A program made the position numbers and the translations under genes. A DNA stretch of 38,505 bases from Spirochaetales bacterium (GTDB lineage: Bacteria; Spirochaetota; Spirochaetia; DSM-2461), in assembly GCA_016936555.1 (NCBI GenBank), contig JAFGXR010000016.1, positions 1 to 38,505 on the forward strand, written 5' to 3'. This document shows, in pieces, positions 1,990 through 7,504 of this stretch (its first letter is position 1; each line of letters begins with the position of its first letter). The notes under the pieces were generated by a model, which was not told the DNA's origin, searched no databases, and worked only from the letters and a program-made list of their open reading frames with translations.

Positions 1990-4776
1990 TCAAGGGAGAA
2001 GGGGCTGCTGCAAAAGATCATTTCCCTCGGACGGAGGCTCCCCGGTCGGAGAATCGGATAGCTCTTCGGTCATCTCCTGGATATCATCCTCATCGATAAA
2101 GATGATGGACCGGACCCGGGAGAAAACTCTGATTTCGATTTTTTCCTCATCTTCCGCATCCAGTTCCACGGTAATTTCGTCTTTTTCGAAATAATGATTC
2201 TCCGGCAGGGCTTTATTGTCAGCGCGGATATTCCAGATCCCCGGCCTGAGCCGGGAAACGAAAAATCTACCCCGCGAATCGGTGACAGCGTATTTCACAT
2301 CGTCCCCCTGGCTGAGTTCTATGAGCACACCGGATAATCCGTAGGGCTCCTCGTATTCCCTTTCTCCCGATTCATAATTGGCAAGAATGCGCTTCGGTTC
2401 ATAAACGGAAACCTGTCCCGCTATGGTGGAGGATTCAATAACTACCACATCGAGATGGTTTTCCTCACGGCTTTTGATTTTAAGGTTCTGAGGAAATTCA
2501 TCGGCGGTAATCAGCGTTTCATCGAGACTGGAACCGTCCAGATAGATTTCATAATCTCCCGGTTTAAGCGAATGAAAGACAAACCGTCCGTAGGAATCGG
2601 ATATGGCGACCGATGAGCCGATGCGCAATATGACATTTGGAATGGGTTCTCCCGTTTTCCCATAGAATACCGTTCCTTCAAGCCTCTCGATATCATCTCT
2701 CCGGAAGACAGGTATCTCCAGGGGAGTTCTGTACTCGACATTGAGGGAAAACGCCGTTTTGTCATCGGATTCCCGGGGAGGTGCATACCTGCCCAGAACC
2801 GAGAGGGTGCTGTCGTTGGAAAACCGGTGTCGGACACCCAGATTCAGCTCGTCCGATCCTGAGAAGTAGGAGGAGCGGTAATTGACGGTTTTGTAATTGA
2901 GACTTAAGGTCATGTCTGCCGGAAGACTGAGGCTCCAACTCAGACTGAAGAGAGAAAAGACCTTATCCAGGCTGTCCGCTTCATCCCGTGTGAAGGACAG
3001 GGATGAATTGACAGACTGCTTTTCTCCGAGAGGCAGATCAAGGGACAAACCGTATTTTTCGATATTCAGTTTCTCCGATGCTTCATAATCATCATATTTG
3101 CCATATTCGAGAAATGAATTCAATTTCAACTTTCCCACGGTTCTCGAAAACCTGATTCCCAATGTTTCACTGTCATACCACTTTTCCGGCAGAGGCAGCC
3201 TGTCATCGGCAAGGGCTGTCTTCCAGTAAGCCTGCAGTCCCGTCTCCCCGTTGACTTTCCAATTCAACCGTGTCTGAAGGTAATCCTGAAGTGCCGGATA
3301 CTCCCTGTCCAGATGGTTATAAGTTCTGCCCAAGGTGGCGGAAAAACTCAGGGACCGGTCCAGTTTAAAGGAAAGAACGGAATTAAAGAGGTCGATATCC
3401 TGATTGGTTCCGCCGAAGTCCGGGTCGGAATGGAGATATTTGAATCTGTAGGAAACTCTCTCGCCGCTTCCCCCCAGAGAAAGGGACCAGGAATCGTCTA
3501 TCACCTTTCCGGCCTCCGCCGCATATTCAAAATCGAGGACATTTTTGTCATGGGGAGTCACATGCCCCTCTAAGGAGAAAAAATCCTCCGAGCTCTCTTT
3601 GACTCTGTTCAGATAGTTCAGGGCGAACAGATTCTTCAGGGAAGGGGCGTAACCGGCGTAAAGCGCGGTTTCTTCAAAAAGGGGAACAGAGTCTTCATTC
3701 ATAAGATAAAAACTGCCCAGTGTAAAATCGCCCAGTTCCTTTTCAACGCGGACTCCTCTGCCGAATCGCGATGACTCCGTTAAGGCCGAGAGAGAGTAAT
3801 ACCCGTCGCCCAGTAAAACACTCCACTCATCCGCCTTGAGTTCAATCCGGTACTCTTCCCTTTCCTGGGTGAGCTGGCTCTGCCGGTTCAATGGCCGTTT
3901 GAAAAAAAAGGAGAAATCGGTATTGCCTTCGAGATCGAGACTCCCTTTTCCGCTCAACTCGAGCTGAATCCCGAAGAGGTCTGTTTCCCCGTGTTCAAAA
4001 ACGGGATCAATTGCCAGTGTGGCCGGTATGGTATGATAGGGTTCCTCTTTTCCCGTTACCCGGGGATACACATCCACCAGTGCTGCCCTGGAGACCGCCG
4101 CGACCTCATCGTCTTCGGGAATCACCTCCAGCCGGAAAAGGGTTCTGGCCGTTCGGCTCAGCCGGGGATCCGTTTCCACAAATACGTTCACGGTTCTGCT
4201 CTCCCCGGGAGACAGGGTGATATACCGTTTGTCCATGGAAAAATCAAAAGAGTCCTGTGCTGTTCCCTTAAGGATAAAGCGCATTTCCTCATTCCCCGCA
4301 TTCCGGATCCGGTAACTCAGCCGGAAGGTATCCCCGGCAATGGAAAACGCGGGCTGTTCGAGCAGTTCCAGGTCATAATCCCTTCGGGAGAGAACTTCAA
4401 CGGGAAAGATGAAGTAATCCAGCTCTTTCTGCGTATCGTGATTCGTAACGGTATATGTCAGCTCATGAATACCCGCCGGGGCGTCATGGGGGATATAGAA
4501 AGAGAGAAATGTCATCTCCTCGGCTTCAGGGCCGAGTTCGAGAGTTTCCTGTCCCATGACCAGGCGCCATCCTTCGGGGAGTTTAACATCAAAATCAAAG
4601 GAGTTTTCCCCGGCTTTTTTACTGGTGACAAAAAAAACCCGGGTCACGAGTGTACCGGGTTCAGAAACAATAGCTGTGAGATCAGCCGGTTTAATAAAAA
4701 AGGCAGCCTGGCCGGCCAGAAGAGCGCCGGAATAAATCAGGAGAATAAATGCTGACAGCTCCTTCTTCGATATCAA
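1990..4776 (-). CDS. Usher-like outer-membrane beta-barrel with C-terminal transthyretin-like domains
   Basis: A 928-residue exported protein, last gene of the surface operon. An N-terminal hydrophobic segment ending near LLAGQA is a likely signal peptide. Residues about 25-245 look like two Ig-like domains (regularly alternating strands; PHDAPAGIHELTYTV; LSPGESRTVNVFVETDP). Residues about 250-700 are rich in alternating amphipathic strands with aromatic ends, as in a large outer-membrane barrel (for example FGRGVRVEKELGDFTLGSFY). Residues about 705-880 hold two carboxypeptidase-regulatory/transthyretin-like repeats (SDSYGRFVFHSLKPGDYEI; TDSRGRFFVSRLRPGIWNI). Classical ushers have a similar order: N-domain, barrel, then C-terminal domains; I see no obvious plug domain. 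The start is TTG inside a 4-base overlap with the chaperone stop (TTGA), which implies translational coupling. The usher role is inferred from architecture and neighbours; a plain adhesin barrel is the alternative. Confidence 0.6.
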   Translation of the reverse strand: MISKKELSAFILLIYSGALLAGQAAFFIKPADLTAIVSEPGTLVTRVFFVTSKKAGENSFDFDVKLPEGWRLVMGQETLELGPEAEEMTFLSFYIPHDAPAGIHELTYTVTNHDTQKELDYFIFPVEVLSRRDYDLELLEQPAFSIAGDTFRLSYRIRNAGNEEMRFILKGTAQDSFDFSMDKRYITLSPGESRTVNVFVETDPRLSRTARTLFRLEVIPEDDEVAAVSRAALVDVYPRVTGKEEPYHTIPATLAIDPVFEHGETDLFGIQLELSGKGSLDLEGNTDFSFFFKRPLNRQSQLTQEREEYRIELKADEWSVLLGDGYYSLSALTESSRFGRGVRVEKELGDFTLGSFYLMNEDSVPLFEETALYAGYAPSLKNLFALNYLNRVKESSEDFFSLEGHVTPHDKNVLDFEYAAEAGKVIDDSWSLSLGGSGERVSYRFKYLHSDPDFGGTNQDIDLFNSVLSFKLDRSLSFSATLGRTYNHLDREYPALQDYLQTRLNWKVNGETGLQAYWKTALADDRLPLPEKWYDSETLGIRFSRTVGKLKLNSFLEYGKYDDYEASEKLNIEKYGLSLDLPLGEKQSVNSSLSFTRDEADSLDKVFSLFSLSWSLSLPADMTLSLNYKTVNYRSSYFSGSDELNLGVRHRFSNDSTLSVLGRYAPPRESDDKTAFSLNVEYRTPLEIPVFRRDDIERLEGTVFYGKTGEPIPNVILRIGSSVAISDSYGRFVFHSLKPGDYEIYLDGSSLDETLITADEFPQNLKIKSREENHLDVVVIESSTIAGQVSVYEPKRILANYESGEREYEEPYGLSGVLIELSQGDDVKYAVTDSRGRFFVSRLRPGIWNIRADNKALPENHYFEKDEITVELDAEDEEKIEIRVFSRVRSIIFIDEDDIQEMTEELSDSPTGEPPSEGNDLLQQPLLP

Positions 4777-5576
4777 TTTCCGACCTTCAACGTGTATTTT
4801 CCTCCGAAGAGGAGATCATCTCCGCAATCGGCAATCAGCAGGGCTCTGTAGGTTCCCTCTTCCACATCGCTTATGTCGATTGTTCTGTTTACCGATGTCG
4901 AAGGGAAGAGCCTCGCTTTCTCACCTTCGAATCTCCTTACGAATTCGCCGGCATCATTATAGAGTTCCACATAGAGCTGCGGTGTCAGCCATACCTCTCC
5001 GGGATTCTCTATGGTGATATTCAGAAATCTCCCGGTCTCATTTTTTATCAGACCGGTTCCGGTAAATTTCAGCTGCGGCGAAGCGGAACCTTTCAGATCG
5101 GTTATAATCTGAACTCCGAACCGGAAAATCTGGCGGATGGAGAGCGTTCCCGGCTCCGGATCCTGCAGGGAAGCAGCCACGGGCACGTCTTCTATGAAGA
5201 GCATACTCCAGAAAGTGCCCTTGAGACTCTCATCGTCAGGTACTCTGATGGTGCAGGTGATCTCTCCTCCGGCCCCGGGCCTGAGGACCAGGTTCTCGGG
5301 AAAAAAGGTTATCCACCGGGCATTCGTCCTTTCGTTTTCTTCCGGGTCTCTGTATATGACGGAGCCGTCGGGCTGAATGGCATAGTCCTTCAGATAAACT
5401 TTCACCGTTGCATCTTTCTCACCTTTGTTTAATAAAGATATTGTCTCCTCGTATTCCGCTCCGTTTGAAAGCAGCCTGTACCGGGTCAGGTCCCCTTCGA
5501 CGGCGATCTGTCCCTGAAGAGGAAACCACAGGATGAGGAGCAAAAAAGGCAGTAACAGTTTCTTATCTCTTTCCAT
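4773..5576 (-). CDS. PapD-like periplasmic chaperone (two Ig-like domains)
   Basis: A 267-residue exported protein with a strong signal peptide (LLLPFLLLILWFPLQG). Domain 1 (about 22-145) carries a pattern typical of pilus chaperones: a strand pair with NGAEYEETISLLNKGEKDA, then WITFFPENLVLRPGAGGEI and a following IRVPDDESLKGTFWSMLFIE strand. Domain 2 (about 150-267) is another all-beta module (GRFLNITIENPGEVWLTPQL). The expected role is to bind and cap exported subunits in the periplasm and pass them to an outer-membrane assembly protein. It lies between the two small subunit-like genes and the usher-like gene and overlaps the latter by four bases. GAGAGG lies 10 bases before the ATG. Sequence similarity to PapD/FimC is distant, so the call rests on fold pattern and context. 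Confidence 0.6.
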   Translation of the reverse strand: MERDKKLLLPFLLLILWFPLQGQIAVEGDLTRYRLLSNGAEYEETISLLNKGEKDATVKVYLKDYAIQPDGSVIYRDPEENERTNARWITFFPENLVLRPGAGGEITCTIRVPDDESLKGTFWSMLFIEDVPVAASLQDPEPGTLSIRQIFRFGVQIITDLKGSASPQLKFTGTGLIKNETGRFLNITIENPGEVWLTPQLYVELYNDAGEFVRRFEGEKARLFPSTSVNRTIDISDVEEGTYRALLIADCGDDLLFGGKYTLKVGN

Positions 5577-5592
5577 AGTTGTCGGACCTCTC

Positions 5593-6075
5593 TTACGGTG
5601 TATCGATTACGGTGAAATAGATGGTTGTGGAATAGGTATCAGCCGGGATAACTACCGAAATGCCGCTGAGCCGCAGCTGGATATCTATCAGGCTTCTGTC
5701 TCCCGTCCCGTCAAAAAAATACTGGTCTGTCGCGGTCAGTTCCAGAAAAAGACTGTCTCCCCCGCTTATCGTACCGGCACCGGATCCGCCGGATGTGCGG
5801 AGAAGCCCCAGAATCATATCGGAGTGCCACAACAGGTCCTCTTTGTGAACCTGCAATTCCCAGGCATCGCCAGAATCGATCAGATCCCCGATATCAAGGC
5901 TCACCTGATCGGCATTGCTCTGATACTGGGAATTGAGATCTCCACCGGCTCCGGAGGAGACATCGGAAGAATCAATACTCAGCGACCAGCTTCCGCTGAG
6001 ACTGATTGTGATAGCGGAGAGCGGATAGAACGGGAAGAGTAAAAGCACCAGTAGAAAAACATATCGCGCTCTCAT
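5593..6075 (-). CDS. Small exported protein, candidate fibre subunit B
   Basis: A 160-residue protein with a clear signal peptide (FLLVLLLFPFYPLSA) and a mature part of about 138 residues that reads as a beta-sandwich, rich in Ser, Gly and Asp and without cysteine. Its last residues (TTIYFTVIDTP) align with the end of the adjacent exported protein (YTITYTMIDSP), giving a shared T-I-x-aromatic-T-[MV]-I-D-[ST]-P ending. Chaperone-usher pilins also have a conserved C-terminal beta strand recognised by the chaperone. The gene starts 16 bases after the preceding stop with no good Shine-Dalgarno, so coupled translation is likely. I do not recognise a named family; the subunit role is inferred from context and the shared ending. 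Confidence 0.55.
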   Translation of the reverse strand: MRARYVFLLVLLLFPFYPLSAITISLSGSWSLSIDSSDVSSGAGGDLNSQYQSNADQVSLDIGDLIDSGDAWELQVHKEDLLWHSDMILGLLRTSGGSGAGTISGGDSLFLELTATDQYFFDGTGDRSLIDIQLRLSGISVVIPADTYSTTIYFTVIDTP

Positions 6076-6091
6076 ATCATAAGCACTGACT

Positions 6092-6664
6092 CTAGGGAGA
6101 GTCGATCATGGTATAGGTAATGGTATAGACTTCACTTGCCACAGTCACCATATTGGCGAATGTGCTTTCGTCTATGGTCAAAGTGCAGAAGACTGCCGGC
6201 CCCTGGGTCCCGCCGCTTCCCGTTGCACAGCTGGTAATGGTATCGATAATATCAACGGCCGTGTCAGCTACATAAGTCGTTCCCACTTCCAGACCGCCTG
6301 CCAGAGCCGTCCCCACGCCGCCGGTTCCCGTTGGTGCGCCGGCCCAGATATTCATCCTCAGACCGTCTCTCATCGTCGTATCGCAGCTTGCCTGAATGGT
6401 CTTTTCAGCTCCGGTGGCGACGACAACGGTGTACTGGAGATAGGTCGGTGTACCCGCAGGTGTTATCAGGGGCAATTCCCCGGGGGAAGCCGGGTCATCG
6501 ATAACAAAGGAGACGTCTGTTGCTGTCGTATGCTGAAACAGGGAGACATCATTTATCGTAATAGTCGTGGTTGAATCCCCGCCATCAACCTGCGCGCTCA
6601 GAAAGAATGGACTAAGTAGCAGAAGAAGGAGCAGGCAGGAGGCTCTGATTATTCTCTCAGTCAT
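6092..6664 (-). CDS. Small exported protein, candidate fibre subunit A
   Basis: A 190-residue protein with a long signal peptide (LLLLLLLSPFFLSA). The mature part is Thr/Gly/Val rich and all-beta in pattern, with three cysteines (in ASCDTT, TSCATG and VFCTLT). The C-terminus YTITYTMIDSP matches the ending of the next gene's product. I chose the ATG at 6664, not the in-frame ATG 21 bases upstream, because AGGAGG sits six bases before it. It is the second gene of the operon, 68 bp after the barrel gene. It is probably a structural subunit or tip protein of a surface fibre; it could also be an unrelated secreted protein. No database family is recognised by eye. Confidence 0.55.
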   Translation of the reverse strand: MTERIIRASCLLLLLLLSPFFLSAQVDGGDSTTTITINDVSLFQHTTATDVSFVIDDPASPGELPLITPAGTPTYLQYTVVVATGAEKTIQASCDTTMRDGLRMNIWAGAPTGTGGVGTALAGGLEVGTTYVADTAVDIIDTITSCATGSGGTQGPAVFCTLTIDESTFANMVTVASEVYTITYTMIDSP

Positions 6665-6732
6665 ATGAATCCTCCTATGGATCATAATTATAATTCTATC
6701 CCCGATTTGAATTTAATCAAATTCAGGTCAAT

Positions 6733-7458
6733 TCACTGGTCCGACGGACCTTTCCCTATTGATGAAATACTGATTGACGGACCGTAAATAACATGAAGAT
6801 CGTTGTTTATCCCTCCTTTTAAATCGACAGAGAGAAGCATTCTCTCATTGATTCGGAATGTAATCCCGGCGATAAGGCCTCCGCCGAACCCGGTGACATC
6901 CTCAAAGACCCGGTCCTCATAGGCTGTCGGGCCTGTTTCCGGTTCGGTTGTGAAGGATTGGGACCGGTAGGAAGCGGTCAAACCGATTCTTAAAGCCATA
7001 TCGGGATTCAGGACAAAATCCCGGAACAGGTCCGTGCCGACGGAAAAACCGGTGCCGCTTTTTATGAGTTCATTATCTGTCAGATAATCGCCTATCACTT
7101 TGTCTTTCCGGAAGGTTCCGAAAAGCGTGCAGGAAAGGGGAAAGAGATCATCCTGCTGGAGAACCGCGGCGCGGGCGGAGATCCCGAGCTGCAGATTCTG
7201 GGCGGGCAGGCTCTCGATCTCATCGAAATCCATTCTCAGATCAACCCCGAGAAACAGAAAATCCTCAACGACGAATCCGCCGATAAGAGCCACATCGTTA
7301 AAGGAAATATTATCCATGGAGACTTCGACGGCGAACTCCTGCCGGCTGCCGGAATCACCGGGGAAGCGGTTCTGGGCCGTAAGGGAAAATACGGAAAAAA
7401 CCAGATATGCCCCGAAAAGGAGAACTTTTTTTCTCTTTAAGCCATTAATCAAAAGCAT
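6733..7458 (-). CDS. Outer-membrane beta-barrel protein
   Basis: A 241-residue exported protein: signal peptide (LLFGAYLVFSVFSLTA) followed by about eight to ten amphipathic beta strands (LGISARAAVLQ, FSVGTDLFRDFVL, ALRIGLTASYRS, FGGGLIAGITFRI, LLSVDLKGGI). The size suits a small 8- to 10-stranded barrel. It is the first gene of the surface operon. The ATG at 7458 is preferred over the TTG one codon earlier because GAGG lies six bases before it. It may anchor the fibre or be a co-regulated surface protein; it is not recognised as a named family. Confidence 0.6.
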   Translation of the reverse strand: MLLINGLKRKKVLLFGAYLVFSVFSLTAQNRFPGDSGSRQEFAVEVSMDNISFNDVALIGGFVVEDFLFLGVDLRMDFDEIESLPAQNLQLGISARAAVLQQDDLFPLSCTLFGTFRKDKVIGDYLTDNELIKSGTGFSVGTDLFRDFVLNPDMALRIGLTASYRSQSFTTEPETGPTAYEDRVFEDVTGFGGGLIAGITFRINERMLLSVDLKGGINNDLHVIYGPSISISSIGKGPSDQ

Positions 7459-7475
7459 CAAACGCCTCTAACCTT

Positions 7476-7504
7476 ATTTTAGGTTAATCCTGTCCAAACC
7501 TCAA
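7476..7504 (-). promoter_or_regulatory. Probable sigma-70 promoter of the surface operon
   Basis: On the minus strand TTGAGG (7504-7499) is followed after exactly 17 bases by TAAAAT (7481-7476). Transcription would begin about 10 bases before the ATG at 7458, leaving a short leader that still holds the GAGG ribosome site. No other good promoter is seen inside the operon. Confidence 0.5.

Follow-up and report, generated by a model that had tools for sequence, protein, structure and literature searches.

Which machine is encoded by the tightly packed genes near the start of a 38,505-nucleotide stretch of a Spirochaetales genome (GenBank assembly GCA_016936555.1, contig JAFGXR010000016.1, positions 1 to 38,505 of the forward strand; hereafter the window, meaning the whole stretch analysed)? 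An earlier note, made from the sequence, had seen in them an operon resembling those of chaperone-usher pili, with two small secreted subunits, a two-domain chaperone and a large usher-like barrel, but distant from the classical PapD and FimD families. Here, we argue that the operon probably represents a previously unnamed chaperone-usher-like class, in which a donor-strand chaperone and a secretion barrel would assemble surface fibres. No prior description of such a system was found in the open-access literature. The genes and their parts are as follows, each with the evidence for it.

1990-4776, minus strand: usher-like outer-membrane protein, 928 residues, with a signal peptide, two immunoglobulin (Ig)-like domains, a modelled 26-strand barrel, two C-terminal transthyretin/CnaB-like domains and a disordered tail
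4066-4701, minus strand: N-terminal Ig-like pair of the usher-like protein, residues 26-237 (strands of the model; NPCBM_assoc and FixG_C matches)
2701-4038, minus strand: plug-less 26-strand barrel of the usher-like protein, residues 247-692 (model; VIA Z)
2119-2688, minus strand: C-terminal beta-sandwich pair of the usher-like protein, residues 697-886 (Pfam, model, profile match)
4773-5576, minus strand: PapD/WxLIP-like two-domain periplasmic chaperone, 267 residues (model, Foldseek, VIA, profile-profile match)
5094-5147, minus strand: candidate donor strand, formed by the F1-G1 loop and strand G1 of the chaperone, residues 144-161 (column hydrophobicity of 63 members; dip in model confidence)
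5593-6075, minus strand: subunit 2, a small secreted, pilin-like protein of 160 residues (family of 40; terminal strand patterns; distant kinship to subunit 1)
6092-6685, minus strand: subunit 1, a small secreted, pilin-like protein of 197 residues with an alternating hydrophobic N-terminal strand (family of 38; pattern)
6733-7461, minus strand: accessory small putative barrel of 242 residues, outside the conserved core (spirochaetal homologues only)

The gene set is conserved far outside the spirochaetes. A single-sequence search of genome contigs gave no match and a profile was required. Among 395 genomes of the class, strong chaperone matches covering most or all of the protein were found in 12, plus one truncated match; with a profile and a threshold of 1e-10 the count is 15 of 395, some of these matches being weak or partial. 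The profile matched none of the other three genomes of the genus, and the operon is thus patchily distributed. Both subunits, the chaperone and the usher co-occur in most matching loci of the class. In a public genome collection, a profile scan yielded 179 confirmed relatives, of which the best 80 were kept, and neighbourhoods were counted at the 75 loci where a chaperone frame could be recovered. The usher lies directly downstream of the chaperone, on the same strand, at 71 of these 75 loci (median gap 9 base pairs, bp), an adjacency that, across phyla, excludes chance. At least one subunit gene lies within 6 kb of the chaperone at 67 of them and, apart from local neighbours, no further gene family recurs around the 75 loci. 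The chaperone tree names 18 phylum-level groups, among them Bacteroidota, Thermodesulfobacteriota, Myxococcota, Synergistota, Planctomycetota, Verrucomicrobiota, Bacillota (Orenia) and Pseudomonadota (Chromatiaceae). Elusimicrobia are also among the carriers, and a copy in Deinococcus deserti sits on plasmid 2. In all, the operon gene set spans about 20 diderm phyla, which rules out a spirochaete-specific system. The order of subunits, chaperone and usher, which had suggested chaperone-usher pili in the first place, is kept across this range.

What is conserved is a set of four genes, and not the five-gene order that had been proposed. The leading small barrel gene has homologues at only three related loci (L009, L038 and L037), all spirochaetal, where it follows the usher. 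Hence, it stands outside the conserved core and is an accessory, read as a barrel in the earlier note. Otherwise, the operon is as compact as first described. All five frames are open, lie on the minus strand between 1990 and 7461 and start with a segment resembling a signal peptide. From the leading barrel gene to the usher-like gene the joints measure 47, 16 and 16 bp, followed by a 4-bp overlap; the first joint becomes 68 bp if subunit 1 starts at its inner ATG. GC content at third codon positions is 0.56-0.59 in the five genes, in a window of 45% GC. The one good promoter of the earlier note did not survive: the site near 7504-7476 fits 9 of 12 consensus bases, about 1.3 such sites are expected there by chance, and we dropped it as no better than that expectation.

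Two structural predictions had been set beforehand as refuting tests, namely that the 267-residue protein has a PapD-like two-domain fold and that the 928-residue protein forms a barrel. The AlphaFold2 model of the chaperone, from 63 family members, has a mean predicted local distance difference test score (pLDDT) of 93.1 and consists of two beta sandwiches, with a loop of low confidence at residues 131-150. The PapD-like fold was confirmed by the model and by both structural comparisons. In Foldseek the top match is WxLIP of Enterococcus faecium (3.5e-14), followed by full-length PapD-type chaperones (CfaA at 3e-10; CsuC, Caf1M and FimC near 1e-8), and the Z scores of VIA-align rank WxLIP (16.6) above CfaA (13.5), FimC (13.4) and CsuC (12.9). 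By sequence profile, WxLIP is the sole credible match of the chaperone family among solved structures (3e-6), FimC as a single sequence giving none, and hhalign aligns the family with 21 PapD_N-positive spirochaetal chaperones over 205 columns and both domains (E 9e-7). Because it has this profile-profile match to the PapD side and its best solved match in WxLIP, the chaperone family is tied to both and links PapD to WxLIP. Three PapD_N-positive chaperones, at L130, L132 and L135, are also matched by the window-type profile (1e-6 to 2e-5 in a search of a small set) and provide sequence bridges between the two groups. In the tree, the branch that parts these groups measures about 7 changes per column. 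No family of Pfam or NCBIfam covers the chaperone or the subunits.

The G1 strand of the chaperone looks suited to lending itself to a partner. Positions 145, 147, 151, 153, 155 and 157 are hydrophobic in a fraction of 0.86-1.00 of the 63 members, positions 146, 148, 152 and 156 are polar, and Arg152 is invariant. In archaic and alternative chaperones a conserved Arg89 anchors the carboxylate of the subunit (PMC4654587). This residue has no clear equivalent in the window chaperone: the conserved arginine of the PapD_N-positive set, which we take as the likely counterpart of Arg89, falls at a gap near W123-S124.

The usher-like protein does form a barrel in its AlphaFold2 model (pLDDT 87.3; predicted template modelling score 0.66). 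The barrel has 26 strands within residues 247-692 and no domain inserted between strands, hence no plug, in agreement with the earlier note as far as this single model goes. The extra N-terminal Ig-like pair and the transthyretin-like C-terminal domains that the note had described are also present: the former as two modelled domains with NPCBM_assoc and FixG_C matches, the latter as two beta sandwiches seen both in the model, ahead of a disordered tail, and in Pfam, where the protein matches CarboxypepD_reg, FixG_C and SpaA. At full length, FimD (E 2.7e-16) and PapC are the best matches of Foldseek in the PDB, over about 770 columns. Their template modelling scores are low, about 0.3, which may be attributed, in the model, to a different placement of the domains. 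A search of a viral fold library returned only repeat-like and porin matches.

The two subunits are members of related families (hhalign 2.9e-8 for whole proteins and 1e-4 for mature parts, with 0.12 for a reversed control) and their patterns make them pilin-like. The N-terminus of subunit 1 alternates strictly in hydrophobicity (0.95/0.03/0.97/0.08/1.00), and the C-termini of the two families carry h-x-[FY]-T-h, 2-4 residues before the stop, an ending shared with archaic-type spirochaetal subunits. Hence, the features of an N-terminal exchange strand and a C-terminal F strand are present as sequence patterns. Searches with the subunits among PDB profiles found nothing credible. Membership in WxL, DUF4402 or SCPU was dropped for lack of a Pfam match, and so was homology to archaic-type spirochaetal subunits, for which hhalign gave a seemingly significant signal that was due to the signal peptides and was lost when mature sequences were compared.

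How such a system would work can be sketched from its parts and gene order and from two analogous cases, chaperone-usher pili and the predicted pairing of WxLIP and WxL, all of which suggest donor-strand chaperoning followed by export through a barrel. Sec would export subunits 1 and 2. In the periplasm the two-Ig protein would donate its G1 strand to each incomplete subunit and so cap it (donor-strand complementation). Recruitment of the chaperone-subunit complexes would fall to the usher-like protein, through its N-terminal Ig or C-terminal beta-sandwich domains, and the subunits would pass through the wide plug-less barrel. Once outside, a subunit would exchange the strand of the chaperone for the N-terminal strand of the one that follows, giving rise to a surface fibre or mesh. 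From these analogies we infer that the proteins form complexes and exchange strands, that the subunits pass through the pore and polymerise, and that the product has an adhesive role.

Several results weigh against this reading. PapD_N (PF00345) is absent from the window chaperone and from the matches listed for its 63 relatives. The usher-like protein has no match to PF00577, its profile shows no similarity to FimD, and the sequence link to PF00577 ushers is confined to the C-terminal end, which matches a four-sequence usher alignment. The 26 modelled strands without a plug contrast with the 24-strand plugged barrel of ushers, and in our view place the window barrel outside the Pfam usher family. 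When the barrel is compared alone (the VIA-align list covers mainly residues 247-687), FimD (9fw9_D, Z 17.3) ranks behind the porin MtrB (6r2q_B, Z 21.9) and behind TonB-dependent receptors. The mature subunits have no sequence link to archaic-type pilins detectable by hhalign. Finally, the basic residues that anchor carboxylates in known chaperones, two of them in the classical ones, could not be placed in this one.

One might ask whether the operon is simply an offshoot of the archaic (sigma) chaperone-usher systems that has diverged very far, with an unchanged mechanism and nothing structurally new. The likeness to archaic and alternative systems such as Csu and CFA/I is considerable: the order of subunit, chaperone and usher, a PapD-like chaperone of two Ig domains whose G1 alternates in hydrophobicity, a barrel followed by C-terminal beta-sandwich domains and subunits with the same C-terminal motif, to which the profile match with PapD_N-positive spirochaetal chaperones and that of the usher C-terminal end can be added. 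Yet, the two groups of chaperones are very far apart in the tree, the barrel differs in strand number and plug, and the usher has two N-terminal Ig domains and CarboxypepD_reg-type C-terminal domains. Further, the same genome carries a distinct locus on contig C131 (L011:9173-14252) with a small subunit, a PapD_N chaperone, a PF00577 usher and an SCPU-like protein, and these are the only PapD_N and the only PF00577 matches in this genome. The window system thus adds to an ordinary archaic-type system and does not replace it. We regard a mere archaic branch as unlikely. FimD and PapC share with the window protein an outer-membrane barrel, an N-terminal module and two C-terminal beta-sandwich modules, but the N-terminal module of the window protein is of another Ig type. 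A still different view takes the barrel for a porin- or MtrB-like channel with another cargo, and the Ig proteins for surface proteins that have nothing to do with it. The barrel of MtrB has 26 strands and, together with TonB-dependent receptors, provides the best geometric matches to the barrel alone. But the window system lacks cytochromes, has extra Ig and C-terminal domains and other neighbours, and finds its top full-length matches in FimD and PapC; the near-constant pairing of chaperone and barrel in about 20 phyla, with subunits alongside and no additional family recurring nearby, makes this view very improbable.

The closest relative of the chaperone raises another alternative, a diderm counterpart of the Gram-positive WxL clusters, in which a two-Ig scaffold would lastingly hold strand-complemented small proteins and the barrel would export or anchor them, as single complexes and not as a fibre. 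WxLIP (DUF916-DUF3324) has the same order of its two Ig domains and is the nearest solved protein by sequence and fold. It is predicted to complete WxL by a hairpin strand, much as the long loop of the window chaperone would complete a small partner, and a typical WxL cluster combines a single WxLIP with two small Ig-like partners (PMC10599100), which is also the set found in the window. On the other hand, a C-terminal membrane helix was found in 0 of 63 chaperone members and WxL is not among the Pfam matches listed for 78 subunit members, which sets the operon outside the WxL cluster. In addition, the hosts are diderms, a large outer-membrane barrel nearly always follows the chaperone while Gram-positive WxL clusters have none, and the alternating N-terminal strand of subunit 1 fits strand exchange. 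This alternative seems to us rather improbable. On this evidence the window family acts like a chaperone-usher system, and yet lies outside the known families, since PapD_N, PF00577 and, in one model, the plugged 24-strand barrel are all missing. The wider claim, that this is a fourth, unnamed chaperone-usher-like class of some twenty diderm phyla, built on a plug-less 26-strand barrel and a chaperone of the WxLIP type, and that PapD and WxLIP are of common descent, we consider evenly poised.

Some observations at other loci bear on the variety of the system. Subunit genes flank the chaperone-usher pair on both sides in Bacteroidota (L097, L102, L104, L105, L114, L121 and others). At L068, L071, L072, L109 and L116, in Rhodothermota and Bacteroidota, large proteins of 977-2433 residues are encoded upstream of the subunits; the one that was scanned has a Por_Secre_tail domain, and these proteins may be tip adhesins or unrelated. 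Contig C57 of genome G059 carries a second usher-like frame (L010:6501-8744), whose flanks, as far as they were fetched, contain no chaperone match. In the one record whose annotation was checked, plasmid 2 of Deinococcus deserti, the genes are called hypothetical protein, FimB/Mfa2 family fimbrial subunit and carboxypeptidase regulatory-like protein. Among 198 genomes of the spirochaetal class, 20 encode PapD_N chaperones, although few open-access papers mention the chaperone-usher pathway together with spirochaetes. As for the window itself, the gene of a protein resembling hybrid-cluster protein by sequence (3-1100) and, divergent from it, that of a Crp/FNR-type regulator identified with Pfam (1285-1968) probably make up a separate nitrosative-stress unit at 1-1968, tail to tail with the usher gene. 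The region 7918-32950, with a LacI-type regulator, two GH2 beta-galactosidases, a GH43 protein, an apiosidase-like protein and a beta-helix protein, is devoted to carbohydrate use and looks like one for plant-glycan degradation.

If the proposed class is real, surface-fibre machines of an entire class have gone unnoticed, since their parts fall outside the Pfam families by which such machines are defined. Many diderm phyla about which little is known would gain a testable organelle for adhesion or biofilm formation, and a plug-less barrel of 26 strands would raise the question of how it is gated. The link to WxLIP would also make a common origin of donor-strand assembly in diderms and monoderms testable and, if it holds, PapD in the former and WxLIP in the latter would derive from one donor-strand system of surface assembly.

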